This document shows positions 1 through 38,265 of a stretch of 41,313 nucleotides of DNA, piece by piece. Numbering within the stretch: position 1 is the first letter of the stretch; the number at the start of each line of letters is the position of its first letter. The stretch is taken from the NCBI GenBank assembly GCA_005893165.1, contig VBOR01000062.1:1-41313 (forward strand). The letters run 5' to 3'. Below the pieces are notes generated by a model. The model saw only the letters and a program-made list of their open reading frames with translations. It ran no database searches and had not been told where the DNA came from. This stretch comes from Candidatus Eiseniibacteriota bacterium. GTDB lineage: Bacteria; Eisenbacteria; RBG-16-71-46; SZUA-252. A program made the translations under genes and the position numbers.

Positions 1-994
1 GGACGGCTGGGCGGCCAGGCCGACGTGCACGGCGTCGCCGGGACGTGGCGCGACCTCACCGACAGCGTGAACTTCATGGCCAGCAACCTCACGGCCCAGG
101 TGCGGAACATCGCGGACGTGACCAAGGCGGTGGCCAACGGCGACCTCTCGCGCAAGATCACCGTGGACGTGAAGGGAGAGATCCTCGAATTAAAAGATAC
201 GGTGAACCGGATGGTGGACCAGCTGAGCTCCTTCGCCTCGGAGGTGACGCGCGTGGCGCGCGAGGTGGGGACGGAAGGGAAGCTGGGGGGCCAGGCGGAC
301 GTGAAGGACGTGGCCGGCACCTGGAAGGACCTCACCGACAGCGTGAACTTCATGGCCTCCAACCTCACGGCCCAGGTGCGAAACATCGCCGAGGTCACCA
401 CGGCCGTGGCGAATGGAAACCTCTCCAAGAAGATCACGGTGGACGTGCGCGGGGAAATTCTCGAATTGAAGGACACCGTGAACCGGATGGTGGATCAGCT
501 CCGCTCCTTCGCGGCCGAGGTGACGCGCGTGGCGCGCGAGGTGGGAACGGAAGGGAAGCTGGGCGGGCAGGCGGACGTGAAGGGCGCGGCTGGCACCTGG
601 AAGGACCTCACCGACAGCGTGAACTTCATGGCGTCGAACCTCACGGACCAGGTGCGGAACATCGCCGAGGTCACGACCGCGGTGGCGCACGGGGACCTCT
701 CGAAGAAGATCACGGTGGACGTGCGCGGGGAAATTCTCGAATTGAAGGACACCGTGAACCGGATGGTGGATCAGCTCCGCTCCTTCGCGGCCGAGGTGAC
801 GCGCGTGGCGCGCGAGGTGGGTACGGAGGGACGGCTGGGCGGCCAGGCCGACGTGCACGGCGTCGCCGGGACGTGGCGCGACCTCACCGACAGCGTGAAC
901 TTCATGGCCAGCAACCTCACGGCCCAGGTGCGGAACATCGCGGACGTGACCAAGGCGGTGGCCAACGGCGACCTCTCGCGCAAGATCACCGTGG
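1..994 (+). repeat. Tandem 276-bp HAMP-coding repeats, with a 166-bp exact duplication
   Basis: Three full 276-bp units (1-276, 277-552, 553-828) and part of a fourth (829-994) encode 92-residue HAMP modules. Bases 1-166 and 829-994 appear identical, exactly three units apart, while the units between them differ at many positions. Further, more diverged HAMP units continue to about 1480. Identity over 166 bp that ends at the frameshift point suggests either recent unequal recombination or an assembly fold in the repeat. Confidence 0.85.
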
Positions 995-1035
995 GGGAGT
1001 GTCGGGCGTGTGGAAGGATCTCACCGACAACGTGA
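1..1035 (+). CDS. HAMP-repeat sensor protein fragment (5' part of a hybrid kinase)
   Basis: The reading frame is open from the first base, so the true start lies outside the window. It encodes just over three HAMP-type units of 92 residues, each with the landmarks [44 protein letters not shown] and VAREVGTEG. Such tandem HAMP arrays occur in Nik1/group III-type hybrid kinases, where they relay osmotic or other stress signals to the kinase. After KITV (about 994) the frame leaves the repeat, gives about 14 unrelated residues and stops. The HAMP array resumes at once in another frame, in the next entry. The two pieces are almost certainly one gene split by a frameshift or by misassembly of the repeat. 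Confidence 0.8.
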
Positions 1036-1040
1036 ACTCC

Positions 1041-4000
1041 ATGGCCTCCAACCTCACCGGGCAGGTGCGGGGAATCGCGCGGGTCGTGACGGGGGTCGCG
1101 AACGGCGATCTCCGGCGGAAGCTCACCCTGGAGGCCAAGGGGGAGATCGCGCAGCTGGCGGACACGATCAACTCGATGATCGACACGCTCGCCACCTTCG
1201 CGGATCAGGTGACCTCGGTGGCGCGCGAGGTGGGCGTGGAAGGGAAGCTGGGCGGACAGGCGCGCGTGCCCGGCGCGGCGGGAACCTGGAAGGACCTCAC
1301 CGACAACGTGAACCAGCTCGCGGCCAACCTCACGACGCAGGTGCGCGCGATCGCCGACGTGGCGACCGCCGTGACCAAGGGGGATCTGACCCAGGAGATC
1401 AAGGTGGAGGCGCGCGGTGAGGTCGCCGTGCTCAAGGACACCACCAACGAGATGATCCGGAACCTGCGCGAGACCACGTCGAAGAACAGCGAGCAGGACT
1501 GGCTGAAGACGAACCTGGCCAAGTTCAGCCGCATGCTCCAGGGACAGAAGGACCTCCTCGCGGTGGGCCAGATGATCCTCTCGGAGCTGGCGCCGGTGGT
1601 GAACGCGCAGCGCGCGGCGTTCTATCTCATGGATCAGCCGGAGAAGGGGGAGCGGCTCACGCTGCTCGCGGGCTACGCGCTCGACGAGAAAACGAGCGCT
1701 TCGAAGGGCCTCAGGGTCGGGACCGGGCTCGTGGGGCAGTGCGCGCACGAGAAGCGGAAGATCCTCCTCGAGAAGGTGCCCGCCAAATACGGGAGGATCC
1801 GCTCGGGTCTGGTCGAGGCGAGCCCGCTCAGCGTGATCATCCTGCCCGTGGTCTTCGAGGGAGAGGTGCGCGGCGTGATCGAGCTCGCCTCCTTCGAGCG
1901 GTTCAGCCCGACGCACCAGGCCTTCCTGGATCAGCTCACCGAGACGATCGGGATCGTGATCAACACGATCGAGGCGAACACACGTACCGAGGACCTGCTG
2001 GCTCAGTCCCAGTCCCTGGCCGGCGAGCTCCAGCAGACGAACCAGGAATTACAAGAGAAGGCACGCCTCCTCGCGCATCAGAACGCCGAGGTGGAGCACA
2101 AGAACCGCGAGGTGGAACAGGCGCGTCAGGCGCTGGAAGAGAAAGCCTCGCAGCTCGCCCTGACGTCCAAATACAAGTCCGAGTTCCTCGCGAACATGTC
2201 GCACGAGCTCCGGACGCCGCTCAACAGCCTCTTGATCCTCTCGGATCAGCTTTCGAAGAACGCGACGGGGAACCTGAATCCACGGCAGATGGAATACGCC
2301 AAGACCATCCACGCTTCCGGGAACGACCTCCTGAACCTGATCAACGACATCCTCGATCTCTCGAAGATCGAATCGGGAACGGTGGCCGTGGATCTGAGCG
2401 ATCTGCGCTTCGCGGATCTCCACGGATTCGTCGAGCGAACCTTCAATCACGTGGCCGAGTCGAAGAATCTGGAATTCACCGTCAAGCCGTCGCCCGACCT
2501 GCCGCGCTCCATCCAGACGGACGCCAAGCGCCTGCAGCAGATTCTCAAGAACCTGCTCTCGAACGCCTTCAAGTTCACCCGGCAGGGAAGGGTCACGCTC
2601 GAGATCTATCCGGCGCGTTCCACGGTCCAGTTCGAGAATGCCACGCTGCGGGAGACGGACGCGGTCATCGCGTTCTCGGTCTCGGACACGGGGATCGGGA
2701 TTCCCCTGGAGAAGCAGCAGATCGTCTTCGAGGCGTTCCAGCAGGCGGACGGAAGCACCAGCCGCAAGTACGGCGGCACGGGGCTCGGGCTGGCCATCAG
2801 CCGCGAGCTGGGGTGGCTCCTGGGAGGAGAGATCCAGCTCGAGAGCTCGCCAGGCGAGGGGAGTCTGTTCACCCTCTACCTTCCGGCGAAGTTCGTCCCG
2901 GCGGCGCGCCGGCCGGCGCCCGACAACACGCCGGAGGGCAGGACTCGTCCGGCGATCACTCCCGGCGCGGTGGCGGTCGCGGAGCCCGTGGAGGAGCACG
3001 CGGCGGAGGACCCCGGGGACGACCGCGCCCAGATTGCCGCGGGGGACCGCGTCCTCCTGATTCTCGAGAACGACCGGGCCTTCGCGAAGATGCTCCTCGA
3101 CGTCGCCCACGACCATGGGTACAAGGCGCTGATCGCGGGATACGGCGCCACCGCGTTGAGCCTCACGGGAGAGTACGCCCCGCACGCGATCACCCTCGAC
3201 ATCTCCCTTCCGGACATCAACGGCTGGCGCGTGCTCGAGCGGCTCAAGAACTCCGCGGCCACGCGGCACATCCCCGTCTATGTCATCACCACGGACGAGG
3301 ACCGGGAACGCGCCCTTCGTGGGGGGGCGATCGGTATGGCCATGAAGCCGATCCAGACCCGGGATGCGCTCGATCAGATCCTGACCTCCCTGTTCCGCTA
3401 CGTGGACCGGAACGAGCGGGAGCTGCTCGTGGTCGAGGCGGATCCCGAGCGGCGCAAGAAACTGCGCCGGTTCCTTCCGAAGAACGGCGTCAAGCTCGTG
3501 GAGGTGGCCCCGGAGGAGGCGCTGGCCGAGCTGGCCAAGGGCTCGACCGACTGCGTGGTGCTGAATCCCGAGTTCCAGAACGGATCCGCCGAGATGATCG
3601 ACGAGGTCGTCAACGCCGGGAAGCTCTCCGGCGTGCCGGTGCTCATCCATCGTTCGGAGGAACTCTCGGAAGCGGCGGCCGAGACGGTGCGGCGCCTCGC
3701 GAAGACCGCCGTCGTTCGCGAGGTCCAGAGCCCCGAACGGCTCCTCGATCTGACCACGCTCGTCCTTCACCAGCGCCTGGAGGATCTGACGGAGCCGCAG
3801 CGTCAGGCGATCCTGGATCTCCGCAACGGAGACAAGACGCTGAACGGTCGCAAGGTGCTGATCGTGGACGACGACATCCGGAACATCTTCGCGCTGACCA
3901 GCACGCTCGAGCAGCACCACATGACGACGCTCGCGGCGGAAACCGGACGGGACGCGATCGCGATCTTGGAGGCGAACCCCGACGTGGACGTGGTCCTGAT

Positions 4001-4214
4001 GGACGTGATGATGCCCGAGATGGACGGACTGGACACGACGCGGGCGATTCGTCAGATCCGGCGGTTCCGGGATCTGCCCATCATCGCCGTGACGGCGAAG
4101 GCGATGAAGGGAGACCGGGAGAAATGCATCGACGCCGGGGCGTGGGATTACCTCGCGAAGCCGGTAGACCAGGACGAGCTGCTCGCCATGTTGCGGGCGT
4201 GGCTGGTCCGCTGA
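1041..4214 (+). CDS. Hybrid histidine kinase (HAMP-GAF-HisKA-HATPase-3xREC)
   Basis: HAMP coding in this frame already begins near 996 ([14 protein letters not shown]), so 1041 is only the first ATG after the break and not a natural start. From that ATG: two HAMP modules to about residue 150, a GAF domain (about 175-315), a coiled coil (about 320-380), HisKA with [10 protein letters not shown] (phospho-acceptor His about 388), and HATPase with DTGIGIP and GGTGLGLAI. Three receiver domains follow. The first (3045-3400) keeps LDISLPD. The second (3415-3780) is degenerate, with VLNPEF where the acceptor Asp belongs. The third (3850-4205) is intact with DVMMPEMDG. The layout matches cytoplasmic group III-type hybrid kinases, although any N-terminal membrane part would lie outside the window. 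A second kinase gene follows 10 bp downstream. Confidence 0.88.
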
Positions 4215-27181: not shown

Positions 27182-28564
27182 CTAGCTCGAGGCGGTGAGC
27201 CGGGCGAACCGGCGGCCGATCACGAAGGCGATCGCGAGCCACGCGGCGGCGAGCACGAGATTCAGGGCCGCGAAGCTCTTCGTCGTGAACGCCAGCCAGT
27301 GAATTCCCGCGAGCACCAGCCCCGCCGAGAGCACGTCCCCCAGCCTCCAGAAGATCGTGTCGGTCGCCTGCTTCGCCTTGTACTTCTCGGCCCGCGTCGT
27401 CGGAAGGAACAGGAGATTCCGGACGTTGCTGTTGAGGGAGTAGTCCGTGGCGTTCTCGGCGACCTTCACGAACCGCACGACGGCGAGGAAGGGAAAGACG
27501 GCGAGCAGCGCGTATCCTCCCAGCGCGAGGAGGGGAAGGATGAGGATCGCGTGCCTCACCCCGAAGAAGTGAATGATCCGTGACGCGAGAAGGGCCTGAA
27601 CCAGGAGCCCCACGACGTTCACGGTCGAGAAGAACCCGCCATAAAACGATCCGATGAAGGCGTCCGCGGCTGCCCCGGTCGCGTGCGCGTGGGCCGCCTC
27701 CGTGACCGTCCTTCGCAGCACGTACTCGCCGTTCGTGTTCACCCAGTTCAGGAAGAGAACGAGGAACGCGATCAGGAGGAGATAGCGGTTCTGAGCCAGC
27801 AGCCGGAAGGCGCTGCCCCCGCCGATGCGCTCCTCCTGAGCCCCCGGCCGCGCCGGCGTGTGCCTCAGTCGGCGCTCCCGTTCCCGGGCGTCCACGACCC
27901 GGGTCAGCGCGAGGCTCACGAGAAGGAGCGCTCCTGCCGTCAGGAACATCGCGTCCACGCCGAACGCGGAGATCAGCTTTCCCGTGGTCCAGGGGCCGAT
28001 CGCGGCTCCAGCCGAAGCGCCGAACGTCACGAGCGCCAGGAGGCGCTTTCCTTCTTCCGGCGTGTACACGTCGTTCGTGAACGCCCAGAACTGCGCGATG
28101 ATCATCACGCTGAAGATGCCGACCCAGATGAAGAAGGGCACGCCGACCGGGACACCCGCCCTCGAGAGGAAGTAGAAGGCGACGAGGCACGCCATGAAGA
28201 GCAGCGTCACGGCCGTGATGAGACGGCGCCGGTCCACGCGCCCCGCGAGCACCCCGTAGAGCGGAACGAGGAAGATCAGGAGCAACGCCTGACCCGCCGA
28301 GGAATAGCTCGCGGCCTCGGCGCCTCCGCTCCGGGCGATCAGCGGCTCGCGGATCGTCTTCAGCACGTAATACGCCGCCAGGATGAGGAACACGTTGAGC
28401 GTGAGCAGGATCGCGGTCGCGCCCTCGCCGGGCCGGATCTCCGTGAAGAGCCCCAGCAGGCGCTCGAGCGGATTCTTCTCGCGCGGCGGCTCAGGGGCCT
28501 GGGAAGCGCCTCGGAGGTCCGGAAGGACGACCGCGGTGCGAGGCGGGTCCGGGGGACCCGGCAT
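27182..28564 (-). CDS. NTT/Tlc-like (nucleotide translocase-related) membrane protein
   Basis: 460 residues from ATG at 28564, which shares one base with the stop of the upstream gene (TGATG). About twelve hydrophobic segments are visible. The first helix ends LAAYYVLKTIREPLIARSGG, the signature region of Npt1/Npt2 ADP/ATP translocase-like proteins, followed by AEAASYSSAGQALLLIFLVPLYG. These are related to the ATP/ADP exchangers of intracellular bacteria and plastids, but free-living members are of unknown substrate. It may alternatively be annotated as an MFS transporter. Coupling to the exported kinase-like gene suggests a shared task. Confidence 0.65.
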   Translation of the reverse strand: MPGPPDPPRTAVVLPDLRGASQAPEPPREKNPLERLLGLFTEIRPGEGATAILLTLNVFLILAAYYVLKTIREPLIARSGGAEAASYSSAGQALLLIFLVPLYGVLAGRVDRRRLITAVTLLFMACLVAFYFLSRAGVPVGVPFFIWVGIFSVMIIAQFWAFTNDVYTPEEGKRLLALVTFGASAGAAIGPWTTGKLISAFGVDAMFLTAGALLLVSLALTRVVDARERERRLRHTPARPGAQEERIGGGSAFRLLAQNRYLLLIAFLVLFLNWVNTNGEYVLRRTVTEAAHAHATGAAADAFIGSFYGGFFSTVNVVGLLVQALLASRIIHFFGVRHAILILPLLALGGYALLAVFPFLAVVRFVKVAENATDYSLNSNVRNLLFLPTTRAEKYKAKQATDTIFWRLGDVLSAGLVLAGIHWLAFTTKSFAALNLVLAAAWLAIAFVIGRRFARLTASS

Positions 28565-30324
28565 CAGCGCTCCACCGCGATCACCGCGCCCGAGGCGCGA
28601 GAGACGTAGGCGCGAACCGAGCGGCTCCACCCGTTCCCGCGCGATGCCTGCACGTCCATGGCGAGGAAGGGCCGGTTCGCATCCCCCGCGCCTTTCACCG
28701 CCTCGGCGGCGGGGCCCGAGGCGAGGGACACTTCGGTCTTCACGAGATCCGCCCACTCCGTCCATCGGGACGCGCTTCGATCGGAGTTGACCGCGGCACA
28801 GCGGACGCGGTAGCGGCTCGTCGCGCCGGGGTAGAGACGGCGCTCCGCGCCGAGGTCGTGGAAGAGGACGGCGTCCCCCCGCACCACGAAGAAATCGAGC
28901 GGCGGAAGGCGATCGAACCAGTAGCGGGCGATGGCGTCCCGCCGCGCCGCGAGGATGCGCGTCACGTACGCGGCGGCTTCCGGATTCCGGTACCGTCCCG
29001 TCGAGACGGCGGCACGGAGATGCTCGTCGGTGAATGCCGAGATGACCTTCGCGGCCCAGTAGCCGTCGTGCGAGTTCATGTTGGCGAAGGCCACGTTGGT
29101 CTGGAGCGGCTTCCACTCCATCGGCTGGAATCCGCGGCTCTCGAAGTAGCCGACCTCCGCCAATCCTTCCGGTCTATGGCTCCGCCGCCAGTCGTCCTCA
29201 TGAAAGCCCAGGGCGAGGAGACGTCCGCCGATGGCGGGGAAGTCCAGCGTGTGCTCCTTGCCGAAGCGGGGCTGCGCGCCGCCCCCTGCCGCCGCGCCCA
29301 GCGTGCTCGCGAAATCGATCAGATGGTGCCGGACGTACCGCCTTCCGCCCTCCTCCACGTACATGTCGAGGGAGTTCTGCTCCTTCATGTCCCAGTGATT
29401 GAGCCACGCGCAGAACATGCGCAGCGCGCGAAGCTCGCGGCGGTCCTCGTGGCGCAGATTGTCGTTGGGGTCGTCCCGGCGGATGCCCTTGTAGCTGAAG
29501 GGACCGAGCGGCGTTCCGTCGAGGAAGCGGCTCGCGATCGCGAGCCATCGCCCGTCGGGGAGGCGGTCCACGCGTCCGAGAATCGTATCCAGGTCCGCCT
29601 CCGTCATGGCCCGCTTCACACCGCGCGCGTCGCGGATCGTGGCCTTCCCGGCGACGGCAAGGCGGTCGCGCGTGAAGCTCACGACGCCGTCGTCCGGCAC
29701 GTTGTATCCGGCCGCGTGGAGGATCCGGCCTGTGATGGCCGCGGCGGCGCTCGTTGTCCCCAGCTCGCCCGGAGGATCGAACTTGATGAGGTAGACGTGC
29801 CCCTGCACGTCCCGGATATCGAACCCGGGCGTCACGCCCTGGGTCTTGGCCCGGATCACGGTCCACGACCCTTCTGTCGAAGGACCTTCACCGTCTCCGG
29901 GTCCGAGCCTCACGCGCTCCGGGGAGAGCGGGAAGAGGCCGATCCGGTTGGTGAACCACGTGGAGTTGGACACTTCGCCCAGCGCGTTCACGTCGGCTGC
30001 GTCGTGGACGTTCTCACCGCCGAAGAGCGTCCCGACCCTGCGACCGAGACGCACCGGGTTCACGAGGCGTCCGATCGGACGCAGGAGGGTCTCGTTCGTC
30101 GAGGTCCAGACGGCGTTCGGATCGCGCGCCGCCGGCGCGGCCGGGACGTCGCGGCGATCGTCCTCCTGCCAGAGAATTCGTTCACGAAGGGGTGCGCCGT
30201 AGGCACGCGGCGAGGCCGCCGCGAGAACGACCGCGCAGGCGAGCGGGCAGGCTCCCGCATGGAGCCACCGCCGGGCCGCGGCCCGCACGTCAGTTCGGAG
30301 CCGCGACATGAGCGTTCCCCGCAT
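28564..30324 (-). CDS. Exported protein with a protein-kinase-like catalytic signature
   Basis: 586 residues. ATG 30324 has GGGAGG five bases upstream; ATG 30309 is an alternative. The signal peptide has a hydrophobic core (ACAVVLAAASPRAYGA), so the protein should leave the cytoplasm. Visible motifs: VYLIKFDPP with Lys 181 (like the ATP-anchoring VAIK), HWDMKEQN at 310-317 (same spacing as HRDxKxxN, with Asp 312 and Asn 317) and LIDFAST with Asp 337 (DFG-like, Gly replaced by Ala). The spacings fit a kinase fold, possibly HipA- or FAM20-like. The remaining ~250 residues are not recognised. It overlaps the barrel gene by 35 bases and the transporter by one. Kinase activity is inferred from motifs only. 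Confidence 0.6.
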   Translation of the reverse strand: MRGTLMSRLRTDVRAAARRWLHAGACPLACAVVLAAASPRAYGAPLRERILWQEDDRRDVPAAPAARDPNAVWTSTNETLLRPIGRLVNPVRLGRRVGTLFGGENVHDAADVNALGEVSNSTWFTNRIGLFPLSPERVRLGPGDGEGPSTEGSWTVIRAKTQGVTPGFDIRDVQGHVYLIKFDPPGELGTTSAAAAITGRILHAAGYNVPDDGVVSFTRDRLAVAGKATIRDARGVKRAMTEADLDTILGRVDRLPDGRWLAIASRFLDGTPLGPFSYKGIRRDDPNDNLRHEDRRELRALRMFCAWLNHWDMKEQNSLDMYVEEGGRRYVRHHLIDFASTLGAAAGGGAQPRFGKEHTLDFPAIGGRLLALGFHEDDWRRSHRPEGLAEVGYFESRGFQPMEWKPLQTNVAFANMNSHDGYWAAKVISAFTDEHLRAAVSTGRYRNPEAAAYVTRILAARRDAIARYWFDRLPPLDFFVVRGDAVLFHDLGAERRLYPGATSRYRVRCAAVNSDRSASRWTEWADLVKTEVSLASGPAAEAVKGAGDANRPFLAMDVQASRGNGWSRSVRAYVSRASGAVIAVER

Positions 30325-31684
30325 ACAGGCCTCCCTTGAAGTCGAACATCTGGTCCGCGCGAAGCCGAATCTGCGTCGATTCCCTGCTCCTGGCGATCTC
30401 GATCCTTCCGCCGAAGCCCTGATCCGTGATCGCGCGGAAGCCGCCCCCCCAGGAGGTTTGCCAGAGGTGGGTCGTGATCTCGTGCCACTCGTTGAACACT
30501 TGTCCCGAGCTCAGGAACATGTACGCGTCGATCCCGACACTGTGGGCACGCTCCAGCGCCCAGGCCGGCCACCGGTACTCCGCGGAGACATCCAGGAGTC
30601 CGCGGTCCCTCCACCGGTAGTTGCTGAAGCCGCGCAGCTCCTCACCGGAATGATTGGTGGGAATCCGGGTGAAGGGGATCCGGTGCGTTTCCGGCGCCTC
30701 GGTCCAGTCGAGGGCGCTCCGGATCGCCAGGGTGCGATCCGTGAACCAGAGCGGCAGGAAGGCGCCCGCTTCGCCCCCGTAGCGCCAGAAGGTATCGCCA
30801 TAGGTTCCGGTCGGGCTGAAGTAGGACGCCTGGCCTTGCGTGATCACTCCCGGCTCGGGGCGGCCTGAGCTTTGGGTGGTATCGAGTCGAAGCAGCGCGG
30901 TCGAGAGGACGCCCTCGGAGCGCTTGTTGAATCCCTCCGGAATCGAGGAGGCGAACCGCTGTGCCAGCCCCGGCCCGTCTTCCGGCCGGGGTCCCCGCGT
31001 CGCGATCGAGGTGTAGATCGCTCTCCATTCCGAGGCGAGGGGTCCTCCCAGGGCGCGCCGGTAGCTCAGACCTGCCCAGGATTGCTCCTCGGTGTAAAAA
31101 GATTGGTCCGCCTTGGCGCTCGACGGACCGAGGCCGAAGAAGCGGGCGTTCCGTTCGAGCCGGTAGCCGGCCCCGGCCTCGACCTCGCCGCGCGCCCAGG
31201 GAAGGCGCAGGCCCGCGCCTCCCTGATGCAATCCCTTCACGGTCGTGATGTAGCGGAGCTTGATCCAGTCGGAACGCGCCGCCCTCCGGTCCACGAGGAT
31301 CGTTCCGCCCCCGCCGAATCCGGAGTGCCCGCCGTACGTGAAGCCGGGACCTGCCTGGACGCTTCCGATCCGGATGGGCAGCGTCGGCCCGAGTCTGGGC
31401 AGCACGCCGTGCTCGTCTCCGAAGATGAGTCCCGCCTTGATGCCGCGGGTCAGGAGGAAGACGGGATAGGTCACGACGTAGAAGGGCGCGAGCACCGCCT
31501 GCTCCACGGACCGGCTCGACCGGGTGAAGGCCGCCCGCGACGAAGTGTCGTCGGGGATGGACCCCCAGTAGCTTTCGGTGGAATCGGCGCCGGCGCCCGA
31601 AGGCGCTTCGCTCCGCGCGAGCGCGAAGGACGCGCAGCCAAGGCTCACGGCCAGCATCACGAGCACGAGCATGGGAGCGCGCAT
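30290..31684 (-). CDS. Omp85-like outer-membrane beta-barrel protein
   Basis: 464 residues from ATG at 31684, with GAGGAG upstream. The signal peptide (MRAPMLVLVMLAVSLGCASFALA) is followed by a short linker and a barrel of alternating strands. LRGFSNYRWRDRGLL carries the conserved RGF loop of Omp85/BamA/TamA-type barrels. Strands such as VGIDAYMFLSSGQVF and GGGFRAITDQGFGGRIEIARS are typical of the C-terminal barrel (surface antigen domain). No POTRA domains are present, as in short patatin-like or accessory Omp85 barrels. The open frame extends upstream but has no family similarity there. It sits 11 bp after the Ser/Thr kinase gene. Confidence 0.8.
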   Translation of the reverse strand: MRAPMLVLVMLAVSLGCASFALARSEAPSGAGADSTESYWGSIPDDTSSRAAFTRSSRSVEQAVLAPFYVVTYPVFLLTRGIKAGLIFGDEHGVLPRLGPTLPIRIGSVQAGPGFTYGGHSGFGGGGTILVDRRAARSDWIKLRYITTVKGLHQGGAGLRLPWARGEVEAGAGYRLERNARFFGLGPSSAKADQSFYTEEQSWAGLSYRRALGGPLASEWRAIYTSIATRGPRPEDGPGLAQRFASSIPEGFNKRSEGVLSTALLRLDTTQSSGRPEPGVITQGQASYFSPTGTYGDTFWRYGGEAGAFLPLWFTDRTLAIRSALDWTEAPETHRIPFTRIPTNHSGEELRGFSNYRWRDRGLLDVSAEYRWPAWALERAHSVGIDAYMFLSSGQVFNEWHEITTHLWQTSWGGGFRAITDQGFGGRIEIARSRESTQIRLRADQMFDFKGGLYAGNAHVAAPN

Positions 31685-31695
31685 CGGATCTCCTC

Positions 31696-34089
<2,394 letters not shown>

Positions 34090-34186
34090 TGGGGGTCCGC
34101 CTTCGAGGGGTGGCCTTCCGGGGCCCGACTAGGTGACCTTCAAGCGGTACTCTAATCCTACCCGGGGGGAAGCGTCCACCAAGGGT

Positions 34187-34201
34187 TATAGTGCCTCCGT
34201 G
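34187..34201 (+). promoter_or_regulatory. -10-like box placing the start of transcription on the GTG codon
   Basis: TATAGT (34187-34192) would place +1 at 34199, the first base of the predicted GTG start. No ribosome site precedes that codon. A leaderless message is therefore plausible. No clear -35 is seen. Confidence 0.4.
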
Positions 34202-36403
34202 GCCCCGGCTCCCACCGATACCCGCTCCGCCGTCCTCGCCGCGACCGTGGCGGCCGCGGCCGGCATCGCCTTTCAGGTCGGATCCAAGGCGACCCGGGAC
34301 GCATTGTTCCTCTTCAGCTTCGGCGCCCGGGCGCTCCCGGTGATGGTCATGGCCACGGCGCTCCTCGCGATCGCCTTCGCCTTCCTCTCGGCGCGCGCGC
34401 TCACCGCGTGGGGCCCGGGACGGGTCATCCCGGCCGCCTTCGCGGGAAGCGGCGTCCTCATCCTGATCGAGTGGGGGATCTCCTTCTGGTTCCCGCGCGC
34501 GGCGGCGGTGCTCGTCTATCTCCACTGCGGGTGCCTGGGAGGACTCCTCATCTCGGGCCTCTGGTCCATGGTCAACGAGCGGTTCGATCCGCGCACGGTG
34601 AAGCTCGACCTCGGGTCGCTCACGGTCTGGGGAACCCTGGGAGGAGCATTCGGCGGTCTCATCGCGGCGCGCGTGGGACAGACGCTGCCCGCGACGGCGA
34701 TGCTTCCCATTCTCGCCGCGTTCCATTTCGTGTCCGCGGCGGCCCTGTCGCGCCTGGGACAGAGCCCCGTGGCCACGCCGCGCTCCGCCGTGCCGCGACC
34801 TGCCGAACCGCCGGAGCGGAGCATGCGGACCGGCCTCAGGGCGCTCGCCGGCTCTTCCTACCTTCGCGGGCTCGTGGGCCTGATGGTGCTCGTGACGATC
34901 AGCGAAGGCTTCCTGGATCTGGCCCTGAAGAGCCGTACCGCATCCACGTTCGCGGAGCAGGGGGAGCTGCTTCGTTTCTTCGCGGTGTTCTACGCCGTGG
35001 TCTCCCTGTTCACGCTCCTCGTGCAGACGCTGGCGAGCCGATTCCTGATGCAAAAGGCGGGGCCCGCGAAGACCGCGGCGATGCTCCCCGCCGGGGTCAC
35101 CCTGGCATCGGCGGGGGCGCTTGCGGTTCCGGGCCTCGCGTCGGCGGCGATCGCCCGAGGGGTCGAGTCCATGCTCTCGAACTCCCTCTTCCGCGGCGGG
35201 TACGAGGTGCTCTTCACGCCGGTGTCCGCGCGGGAGAAACGCGCGGTGAAACCGCTCGCCGACGTCGGAGCGGCCAGGGTCGGAGATCTGATCGCCGCGG
35301 GCATCGCGCAGGCGGTGCTCGCGGGATCCATGCTCCACGCGCCGGTCATCCTCACCGCCCTGGCGGCCGGCGTTTCGATTGCCGCGGTCTGGGCGGCGCT
35401 CCGCCTTCAGGCGGGATACGTGAGCGTGCTGGAGCGAGGTCTGCGCTCCCGCGCGATCGAGTTCGATTTCTCGTCGGTCCAGGACGGGCTCACCCAGTCC
35501 ATCATGCTGAAGACCCTGAGCCCGGACGAGCAGAGCCGGATCCTGTCGCGGAGCGGGCTCGTCACCTTGCCCGCGGCGTGGTCCGAGTCCCCCCATGGCG
35601 AACGGATCGCGGACCTGAGATCGCGCGATCCGTCCCGGGTTCGGCGCTCCCTTCGCGGCGAGCCGGTCCCCGTGGAGATCGCGTTCGAGGTGATCTCCCT
35701 GCTCGCGAGAGACGACGTCGCTCGAGACGCGATCGAGAACTTGAGACGGGCGGGCCCCACGGTGATCGAGCCTCTGATCACCGGCCTCCTCAATCCGGGA
35801 GAAGAATTCGCGGTTCGGCGCAGGATCCCGCTCGTCCTCGCGACGTACAAGCTCCCGCGCGCCGTGGAAGGGCTGGGGCAGGGGCTCGAGGATCGTCGAT
35901 TCGAAGTCCGCTATCGATGCGGGCGCGGACTGAGCCACCTCATGGATCTGGACTCCGCCCTCCGCATCGCTCCCGCGCTCGCCTGCGAAGCGGTGCTGCG
36001 CGAGGTGGAGGCGGGGGCGGGCGTATGGGAAGGGCGCCGCCTGCTGGACCGGTTCGACGATGAGCCCTGGTCTCCGGTTCTGGATGACGCGATCCGGAGC
36101 CGCGCGGATCGAAGCCTCGAGCATGTGTTCACGTTGCTCGCCCTCGTGCTGCCGAAGGAGCCGTTGCGGATCGCCTTCCGGGGGCTTCACGCCGAGGACC
36201 CGTTCCTCCGCGGCACGTCGCTCGAGTATCTGGAGTCCTCGCTCCCACCCGAGATCCGGAAGCCTCTCTGGCCCTACCTGGAGGACCGCCGCCCGCGCCG
36301 CGCCGCGGCGGTCCGGCCCACCGAGGAAGCCCTCGCCAAGCTCATCGAGTCGAACGAATCGATGGTGATCCACCTGGACGAGCTGAGGCGAAAGGGCGAG
36401 TAG
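34199..36403 (+). CDS. NTT-like transporter fused to HEAT-like repeats
   Basis: 734 residues from GTG 34199; an alternative GTG at 34133 adds 22 residues. The N-terminal ~400 residues have about twelve hydrophobic segments and the motif GSKATRDALFLFSFG, which parallels the first-helix signature of NTT-like proteins. A large soluble C-terminus (about 420-734) has alpha-helical repeats with HEAT-like pattern (ARDDVARDAIENLRRAG, LPRAVEGLGQGLEDRRFEVRYRC, LGLHAEDPFLRG-type). NTT domains fused to HEAT or cyclic-nucleotide-binding domains are known from non-parasitic bacteria. It is divergent from the Ser/Thr kinase with 109 bp between starts, so both may share control. Confidence 0.65.
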   Translation: MAPAPTDTRSAVLAATVAAAAGIAFQVGSKATRDALFLFSFGARALPVMVMATALLAIAFAFLSARALTAWGPGRVIPAAFAGSGVLILIEWGISFWFPRAAAVLVYLHCGCLGGLLISGLWSMVNERFDPRTVKLDLGSLTVWGTLGGAFGGLIAARVGQTLPATAMLPILAAFHFVSAAALSRLGQSPVATPRSAVPRPAEPPERSMRTGLRALAGSSYLRGLVGLMVLVTISEGFLDLALKSRTASTFAEQGELLRFFAVFYAVVSLFTLLVQTLASRFLMQKAGPAKTAAMLPAGVTLASAGALAVPGLASAAIARGVESMLSNSLFRGGYEVLFTPVSAREKRAVKPLADVGAARVGDLIAAGIAQAVLAGSMLHAPVILTALAAGVSIAAVWAALRLQAGYVSVLERGLRSRAIEFDFSSVQDGLTQSIMLKTLSPDEQSRILSRSGLVTLPAAWSESPHGERIADLRSRDPSRVRRSLRGEPVPVEIAFEVISLLARDDVARDAIENLRRAGPTVIEPLITGLLNPGEEFAVRRRIPLVLATYKLPRAVEGLGQGLEDRRFEVRYRCGRGLSHLMDLDSALRIAPALACEAVLREVEAGAGVWEGRRLLDRFDDEPWSPVLDDAIRSRADRSLEHVFTLLALVLPKEPLRIAFRGLHAEDPFLRGTSLEYLESSLPPEIRKPLWPYLEDRRPRRAAAVRPTEEALAKLIESNESMVIHLDELRRKGE

Positions 36404-36522: not shown

Positions 36523-38265
36523 ATGCGTAACGCGGTGCTTGCGATCTCTTGCCTCCTGCTGCTCTCGGGGTGCAGCGGCTCCGACAAGGTCGTCAATCCT
36601 CCACCCGGTGTCGGCGTATGGGCATCGCTGGAGTCGGGGATTCCGCTCTATGGCGTCTGGGGCGCCTCGGCGACCAACGTATTCGCGGTCGGCGAGGGGG
36701 GCACGGTCCGGCATTACGACGGCGCGGCGTGGACCGGAGTGGCGGTCCCGACGAGCGTTGACCTCTTTGGTGTCTGGGGGACCTCGGCGAGCAACATGTT
36801 CGTCGTGGGGAATGCCGGCACCATCCTGCGTTACAACGGCACCGCCTGGACCACGATGGTCAGCGGCAGCACCGCGGACTTCAATCGTGTCTGGGGTGCA
36901 TCCGGAACCAACGTGTTCGCGGTCGCTGGTGACGGCTCCATCGTGCACTACAACGGGACGTCCTGGAGCGCCATGACCAGCGGGGTCACGAGCCCGCTCA
37001 ACGGCCTCTGGGGAGCCAGCGGCACCGACGTGTTCGCCGTCGGGAGCACCGGCACCATCCTCCACTACAACGGCACCGCCTGGACCGCCATGACCAGTGG
37101 AACGACCGTGGTGCTCTACGGGATCTGGGGAAGCTCCGGGACCGACGTGTACGCGACGGGGAACACCGGCACGCTCCTGCACTACAACGGGACCTCCTGG
37201 AGCGCCGTGACCAGCGGAACCACGCAAGCCCTCTGGGGGATCTGGGGTACGTCGGCGAGCAACATCTTCGCCGCAGGGCTCAATGGCACCATCCTGCGCT
37301 ACGACGGGACTTCCTGGAGTCCCATGACGAGCGGGACGACCGAGACCTTCTACGACGTGTGGGGGGCTTCAGGCAGCGATGTCTTCGCGGTGGGAAGTGC
37401 CGGGGTCATCGGGCACTACAACGGGACGGCGTGGAGCGTCCAGACCCATGGGATCAGCGAGAACCTGAACCGCGTCTGGGGACCTTCGGCCAGCGACGTC
37501 TTCGTCGTCGGCGGTCCGGTCGCCGCAGGCGCCGGAACGATCCTTCACTACAACGGGACCGCGTGGAGCGCCATGACCAGTGGTTCCACACTCGTCCTCG
37601 ACGGCGTCTGGGGGACCTCGGGAAGCGACGTGTTCGCGGTCGGAGAGAGCGGGAGCATCCTGCACTACAATGGAACCGCGTGGGCCCCCATGGTGAGCGG
37701 AACGACGCAGAACCTCAACGACGTGTGGGGGACCTCGGGGAGCGATGTGTTCGCCGTGGGGGCCGCCGGCACCATCGTGCACTACAACGGGACCGCATGG
37801 AGCGCCATGACCAGCGGGACGACCCAGATCCTGTACGGGGCGTGGGGGACCTCGGCGAGCGACGCGTTCGCCGTGGGCGACGCCGGCACCATCCTGCACT
37901 ACAACGGCACCGCGTGGAGCGCCCAGACGAGCGGGGCGACGACGACCCTCTACGCGGTCTGGGGAGCCGCGGCGAACAACGTGTTCGCGGTTGGAGGCAG
38001 TGGCACCCTGTTGCGCTACAACGGCACTTCTTGGAGCGGCACGGCGAGCGGAACCACCCAGGATCTCTTCCACGTGTGGGGAACTTCGGGCAGCGACGTG
38101 TTCGCCGTGGGCGCCTCCGGCACGATCTTACATTCAGGCGGGGGCTCCTGGGTCGCCATGGCCAGCAGGACGATCCAGGATCTCTACGGTGTCTGGGGAA
38201 GCTCGGGAAGCAACGTGTACGCCGTGGGCGCGCCTACGCAGATTCTCCACTACACGGGACCGTGA
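36523..38265 (+). CDS. Lipoprotein of fourteen 39-residue propeller repeats
   Basis: 580 residues with GGGAG nine bases upstream. The lipobox LLSGC gives a lipid-anchored mature protein. Fourteen copies of a 39-residue unit follow, consensus VWGxSgsDVFAVGxxGTIxHYNGTxWsxMtSGTT. The eighth unit carries a seven-residue insertion (VGGPVAAGAGTIL) and the last two are the most diverged. The beta-rich unit with a conserved W-G and Y-N-G resembles BNR/YTV or WD40-like propeller blades, and fourteen blades would fit two seven-bladed propellers. It probably binds a ligand or protein at the cell surface. No catalytic residues are seen. A -10-like TACGCT lies at 36431. Confidence 0.85.
   Translation: MRNAVLAISCLLLLSGCSGSDKVVNPPPGVGVWASLESGIPLYGVWGASATNVFAVGEGGTVRHYDGAAWTGVAVPTSVDLFGVWGTSASNMFVVGNAGTILRYNGTAWTTMVSGSTADFNRVWGASGTNVFAVAGDGSIVHYNGTSWSAMTSGVTSPLNGLWGASGTDVFAVGSTGTILHYNGTAWTAMTSGTTVVLYGIWGSSGTDVYATGNTGTLLHYNGTSWSAVTSGTTQALWGIWGTSASNIFAAGLNGTILRYDGTSWSPMTSGTTETFYDVWGASGSDVFAVGSAGVIGHYNGTAWSVQTHGISENLNRVWGPSASDVFVVGGPVAAGAGTILHYNGTAWSAMTSGSTLVLDGVWGTSGSDVFAVGESGSILHYNGTAWAPMVSGTTQNLNDVWGTSGSDVFAVGAAGTIVHYNGTAWSAMTSGTTQILYGAWGTSASDAFAVGDAGTILHYNGTAWSAQTSGATTTLYAVWGAAANNVFAVGGSGTLLRYNGTSWSGTASGTTQDLFHVWGTSGSDVFAVGASGTILHSGGGSWVAMASRTIQDLYGVWGSSGSNVYAVGAPTQILHYTGP
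36652..38250 (+). repeat. Fourteen 117-bp tandem coding repeats
   Basis: The VWG codons recur every 117 bases (for example 36658 and 36775). The unit is kept in frame throughout, with one expanded copy near 37500-37560. Adjacent units are similar but not identical, so they are old or under selection and not fresh slippage copies. Confidence 0.88.

Follow-up and report, generated by a model that had tools for sequence, protein, structure and literature searches.

We describe a gene cassette in a 41,313-nucleotide stretch of DNA from a Candidatus Eiseniibacteriota bacterium (contig VBOR01000062.1; hereafter the window, with the genes under study at positions 27182-36403), in which a transporter of the NTT/TLC superfamily (NTT1) is encoded beside a putative exported kinase-like protein (EXK) and an Omp85-type outer-membrane barrel (OMP85). 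The association of EXK with NTT1 is strongly supported: the same gene order recurs across many genera of two phyla and is thus more than chance; further, in some Myxococcota the same clade of NTT1 is tied to a different exported enzyme, a dikinase. The pairing of NTT1 with an exported kinase-like or ATP-using enzyme suggests that some free-living bacteria send ATP out of the cytoplasm for envelope phosphorylation. We advance, with slightly better than even confidence, the reading of the cassette as a module for phosphotransfer in the envelope, in which NTT1 feeds a HipA-like exported EXK, with the barrel as its partner or substrate and the dikinase as an alternative enzyme.

Conservation of the cassette in two phyla

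Among the 47 sampled genomes of the window's phylum, EXK homologues are present in 17, and strong matches to the NTT1 clade (best E<1e-60) are confined to the 12 that code for an active-type EXK and found in every one of them (12/12 vs 0/35, Fisher 2e-11), with weaker NTT relatives present in other genomes of the phylum. The order OMP85-EXK-(phosphoesterase)-NTT1, often with overlapping open reading frames (ORFs), is seen in 11 of these 12, the exception being G002, where NTT1 lies on another contig. Both EXK and NTT1 occur only here and there in families f1, f2 and f11, other members of which have neither; therefore, the match between them is not simply that of one clade. A scan of genome contigs with the single EXK protein returned one Myxococcales locus, which led to the second phylum. 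There, EXK homologues were found in 29 of the 284 genomes sampled (24 active-type and one more, G266, ambiguous), and the NTT1 clade, counted by identity and including fragmented matches, in 42; NTT1 is present in 20 of the 24 genomes with an active-type EXK. Here too OMP85 precedes EXK; NTT1 follows immediately in six loci and lies no more than a few kb away in four others. The initial annotation of the window had named a recurring neighbourhood of the exported protein and NTT homologues as the check on its proposal, and the spread of the cassette over the two phyla bears it out very strongly.

In nine genomes, namely G007-G011 (family f5, of the window's phylum) and G099, G168, G211 and G245 (Myxococcota), the catalytic Lys, Asp and Asn of EXK are gone, as is its DFG-Asp, and none of the nine has NTT1. 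One of them, G009 (69% complete), carries, besides the degenerate copy, a piece of another EXK that looks active and is cut off by the contig end. The barrel is retained beside the degenerate EXK wherever the locus was read: loci L040, L042-L045, L097 and L098 each code for the pseudoenzyme with an adjacent Omp85-type barrel and without NTT1.

An exported dikinase in place of EXK

Another neighbourhood is shared by 16 of the 20 Myxococcota NTT1 loci without EXK that were read, four of the 16 ending at contig ends before the dikinase is reached. Its hallmark is an exported protein of about 1000 amino acids, which combines a phosphoenolpyruvate (PEP)-utiliser His domain with a C-terminal PPDK_N ATP domain (4e-38), accompanied by two exported SxxK beta-lactamase-like proteins. 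Signal peptides were recognized by eye in 6/6 copies read, and the ATP and His motifs (GPKGANLGEL, VRSDTNVED, DIEFAFKDGKLALLQ and SSLSH..ARNLGIPN) are intact in 3/3. With its ATP and phosphohistidine domains this protein resembles the PEP synthase/pyruvate phosphate dikinase/water dikinase superfamily (PF01326), from which it differs in its signal peptide, an N-terminal region of no assigned family and the C-terminal placement of the ATP domain. Of the 284 Myxococcota genomes, 17 code for the dikinase; all 17 lack EXK, and 16 have NTT1. The transporters linked to the dikinase group together in the NTT1 tree as a single clade (support 100), which branches from within the EXK-linked ones. Altogether, EXK or the dikinase occurs in 36/42 genomes with NTT1 vs 5/242 others (p 6e-34, uncorrected for relatedness). 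A role in nucleotide supply predicts just such a tie of the NTT1 clade to another exported enzyme that uses ATP and is unrelated to EXK. The dikinase cassettes lie in loci L099, L101, L105-L108, L111, L113, L114 and L116-L118, six of which contain a further NTT-like gene.

EXK as a likely HipA-like kinase

The N-terminus of the window EXK is basic and followed by a hydrophobic stretch, and most homologues present a basic N-terminus, a hydrophobic stretch and small residues, with a lipobox in that of L026 (all read by eye). Kinase catalytic motifs, claimed for the protein in the initial annotation, are present as K..HxDxKxxN..D and conserved in the active-type homologues: the window EXK has HxDxKxxN (as HWDMKEQN) and LIDFASTLG, and 20 aligned homologues conserve K-F-D, a helix after it with AAGY.VP, HxDx(K/R)xxN and an LIDFG-like motif. 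The catalytic Lys, the loop Asp/Asn and the metal-binding Asp are thus all found in the window EXK, as they are in the active-type group. In profile comparisons with hhalign, EXK scored 42-46 against HipA, over a region that corresponds to the N-lobe, vs a block-shuffled null of 21.3 +/- 3.2 (maximum 29.8 of 60); against profiles of unrelated families it scored 11-20. The Ser/Thr kinase profile gives a weak score (26-27; null 20.5 +/- 4.0), but the alignment nonetheless places the catalytic loop and DFG correctly. Because of these motifs and the HipA score above the shuffled null, EXK is, as judged from sequence, likely a HipA-like kinase.

With the HipA-type kinases (PF07804; HipA_2, PF20613) it shares the N-lobe profile (KFD, helix, AAGY.VP) and the D-x4-N spacing of the catalytic loop; in contrast to them, it looks exported, has no HipA domain above cut-off, possesses extra N- and C-terminal regions and has no HipB-like neighbour that we could see beside it. 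Comparison of EXK alone and of its profile with PDB sequences gave no real match, only spurious armadillo designs, and no EXK was found in the viral contigs searched. In an EXK subgroup (L030, L031, L033), the DF at the metal-binding Asp is replaced by DV/DA.

NTT1 and the wider NTT/TLC superfamily

NTT1 belongs to the wider NTT/TLC superfamily. It lies over the Pfam cut-offs for both TLC (2e-16; cut-off 21 bits) and MFS_1 (2e-17), with the scores given in Table 1, and positions 7-430 of the 435 in its family profile (A3) align to structure 9j3n (E 4e-19), with 9j3j also matched (E 3.5e-13). The latter two matches amount to a nearly full-length likeness to the ATP/ADP carriers of Chlamydia and plants. 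From those transporters (PF03219, TIGR00769; Chlamydia Npt1 and plant NTT1) the NTT1 clade is set apart by its tie to exported enzymes, by hosts that are bacteria not known as intracellular, and by a score of 52.3 bits against the NCBIfam model TIGR00769, far under the cut-off of 387.2. According to PMC5381601, NTT members in free-living bacteria have no known function, which that paper states as an open question.

A proposed mechanism and its alternatives

Briefly, we envisage the following. EXK would be exported and act outside the cytoplasm through a protein-kinase-like (HipA-like) catalytic domain. NTT1 would sit in the inner membrane and supply EXK with nucleotide; the simplest form of this would be an exchange of ATP from the cytoplasm for ADP from the periplasm. 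At the outer membrane, the Omp85-type barrel encoded just upstream might serve as the partner or substrate of EXK, and in many relatives the EXK product may be reversed or processed by an exported phosphoesterase that is a lipoprotein. In some Myxococcota, the same NTT1 clade would serve the dikinase, a different exported ATP enzyme. Taken more broadly, it is possible, at a little under even chance, that a dedicated exchanger clade of the NTT superfamily feeds ATP to at least two unrelated kinds of envelope-modifying exported phosphotransferases in free-living bacteria.

Several observations weigh against such a module. On the side of genome distribution, four Myxococcota genomes with an active EXK and one with the dikinase have no NTT1, and six of the 42 Myxococcota genomes with NTT1 have neither EXK nor the dikinase; the remaining NTT1 loci that were examined have no exported enzyme in common. 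Moreover, the contrast in NTT1 presence between active and degenerate EXK (32/36 vs 0/9, p 8e-7) comes down to one or two deep splits of the tree; since just one or two events are needed, the contrast fits the model without being independent proof, and we rejected it as sole proof of the EXK-NTT1 link. On the side of EXK, no family in Pfam or NCBIfam matched it, and across 20 members none of the curated families rose above cut-off, the best being HipA_2, seen once at E 0.14. AlphaFold2 with a two-sequence input gave models of the full length and the core that were too poor for use, with predicted local distance difference test (pLDDT) values of 32 and 34. The window EXK has DFA in place of DFG and a Gly at the aligned position of the alpha-C Glu, and the EXKs of L030, L031 and L033 have Gln at the position of the catalytic-loop Asn. 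On the side of the transporter, K155 and K527 of the plant protein AtNTT1 are important to the binding of ADP and ATP, as E245 is to translocation (PMC3306366); in the NTT1 clade, E245 corresponds to an invariant Gly149, K527 to an invariant Asp410 and K155 to Ser/Ala, as mapped from the printed profile alignment, in which the K155 region is aligned less surely than the other two. Because these residues are unconserved, and with the TIGR00769 score under its cut-off, we regard the label of ATP/ADP exchanger in the narrow sense as unjustified for NTT1.

This lack of the plant ADP/ATP-binding residues fits a different scenario, wherein NTT1 carries another phosphorylated metabolite (a nucleotide, a nucleotide sugar or NAD) as donor or acceptor for the modification of an envelope polymer, with no export of ATP itself. 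In keeping with it, the sole characterized bacterial NTT outside the ATP clade, as reported in PMC5381601, carries NAD. Yet one transporter clade is tied to two unrelated types of exported enzyme with ATP-type motifs, and the superfamily of the dikinase is an ATP-using one; we accordingly consider this scenario rather unlikely.

The direction of transport could also be the reverse, with NTT1 and the second NTT-like protein of the window (NTT2-HEAT) acting as scavenging importers, and the exported enzymes working on outside nucleotides such as those of lysed cells. The Myxococcota include predators, and many copies of the cassette include an exported phosphoesterase. Known NTTs of parasites bring in host nucleotides, according to PMC5381601. 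However, a kinase or dikinase would use up ATP and be of no help to uptake, and no NTT1-clade transporter accompanies the EXKs that are without their catalytic residues; we hold inward supply to be improbable. Least credible, to our minds, is a reading in which EXK is an inactive adaptor for the barrel, exported and of kinase or other fold, and NTT1 stays beside it for some other role that they share in the envelope. In its favour, the degenerate EXKs retain the barrel, the window EXK is off consensus at the two active-site positions noted above, and AlphaFold2 gave no usable fold model of EXK; against it, the NTT1-associated EXK group retains the Lys, catalytic-loop Asp and DFG-Asp with very few exceptions in both phyla, and genomes with degenerate copies only are without NTT1.

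The phosphotransfer module that we favour can be likened in its way of working to the FAM20/Golgi kinases of the eukaryotic secretory pathway, which act outside the cytosol and depend on a membrane nucleotide transporter; EXK differs in its bacterial origin and its link to an Omp85 barrel. The periplasm is generally held to be ATP-free, and the part of the literature that we covered describes neither an ATP-fed periplasmic kinase nor an EXK-like family. The novelty lies in the system as a whole, the parts being known superfamilies and the mechanism a proposal. With a transporter clade that tracks exported ATP-using enzymes, the cassette offers a testable answer on both periplasmic ATP and the role of NTTs in free-living bacteria; if correct, it would give bacteria an equivalent of secretory-pathway phosphorylation, along with a further route to regulate outer-membrane barrels or envelope polymers.

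Organization of the window locus and other neighbours

All five genes of the locus (Table 1) and their spacings were found in the sequence as initially annotated. On the minus strand, STK-TPR and OMP85 are separated by an 11-bp gap; OMP85 and EXK overlap by 35 bases if counted from the first ATG of EXK and by 20 bases from the second; and the EXK stop and NTT1 start share one base, as TGATG. NTT2-HEAT is divergent, with 43 bp between it and the start of STK-TPR.

Table 1. Genes of the cassette locus in the window
Gene	Coordinates	Strand	Length (amino acids)	Description and evidence
NTT1	27182..28564	-	460	TLC/NTT-superfamily transporter; TLC 60.2 bits, MFS_1 63.5 bits
EXK	28564..30324	-	586	Putative exported kinase-like protein; motifs, HipA profile comparison, signal-like N-terminus
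OMP85	30290..31684	-	464	Omp85-type outer-membrane barrel; PF01103 27.5 bits
STK-TPR	31696..34089	-	797	Ser/Thr kinase with tetratricopeptide repeats (TPRs); Pkinase 4e-50, TPR families
NTT2-HEAT	34133..36403	+	756	Second NTT-like protein with C-terminal HEAT repeats; HEAT_2 21.5 bits

OMP85 scores over the PF01103 cut-off of 24 bits, and Pfam matched in it no POTRA domains of the kind that mark BamA/TamA-type proteins. It is the most constant neighbour of EXK, adjoining it in nearly all loci, those of the pseudokinases included, and is a candidate substrate or partner. In seven genomes of the window's phylum (loci L030, L031, L032 and L034-L037) an exported calcineurin-like phosphoesterase, with a lipobox read by eye in several, is encoded between EXK and NTT1 by ORFs that overlap or touch; a search of the window's own genome for this cassette enzyme did not find it. 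We consider it a candidate counter-enzyme to EXK.

The two remaining genes fare differently. While the coupling of a transporter to an exported kinase, as initially proposed, is upheld by co-occurrence and by the dikinase tie, the accompanying suggestion that the TPR Ser/Thr kinase is the controller of the system is not: homologues of STK-TPR in relatives are absent or lie at varying distances from the cassette, and we rejected it as a core member, which it probably is not. NTT2-HEAT, whose TLC score (14.6 bits) is under the cut-off, is an accessory partner in part of the relatives: its homologues adjoin EXK/NTT1 in L027, L028, L082 and L088, and a related NTT-HEAT protein in L112 reaches 38.6 bits for TLC. 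An obligate partnership was rejected, as many cassettes are without NTT2-HEAT and other NTTs are present without EXK. It has the architecture of the NTT-HEAT fusion proteins of Major et al. 2017 (PMC5381601), to which the literature assigns no function; it differs in lying divergently next to an NTT1-EXK cassette, a linkage absent from the parts of that paper covered here.

Elsewhere in the window, the plus strand codes for a putative lipoprotein (36523-38265) with at least a dozen repeats (GTILHYNGTAWSAMTSGTT...) and no family above cut-off. Also on that strand (25-4214) is a large protein in which near-identical segments are repeated, with histidine-kinase and receiver-like parts after them; it is covered by two overlapping frames with a common start, which suggests a frameshift or an assembly effect in the repeats.

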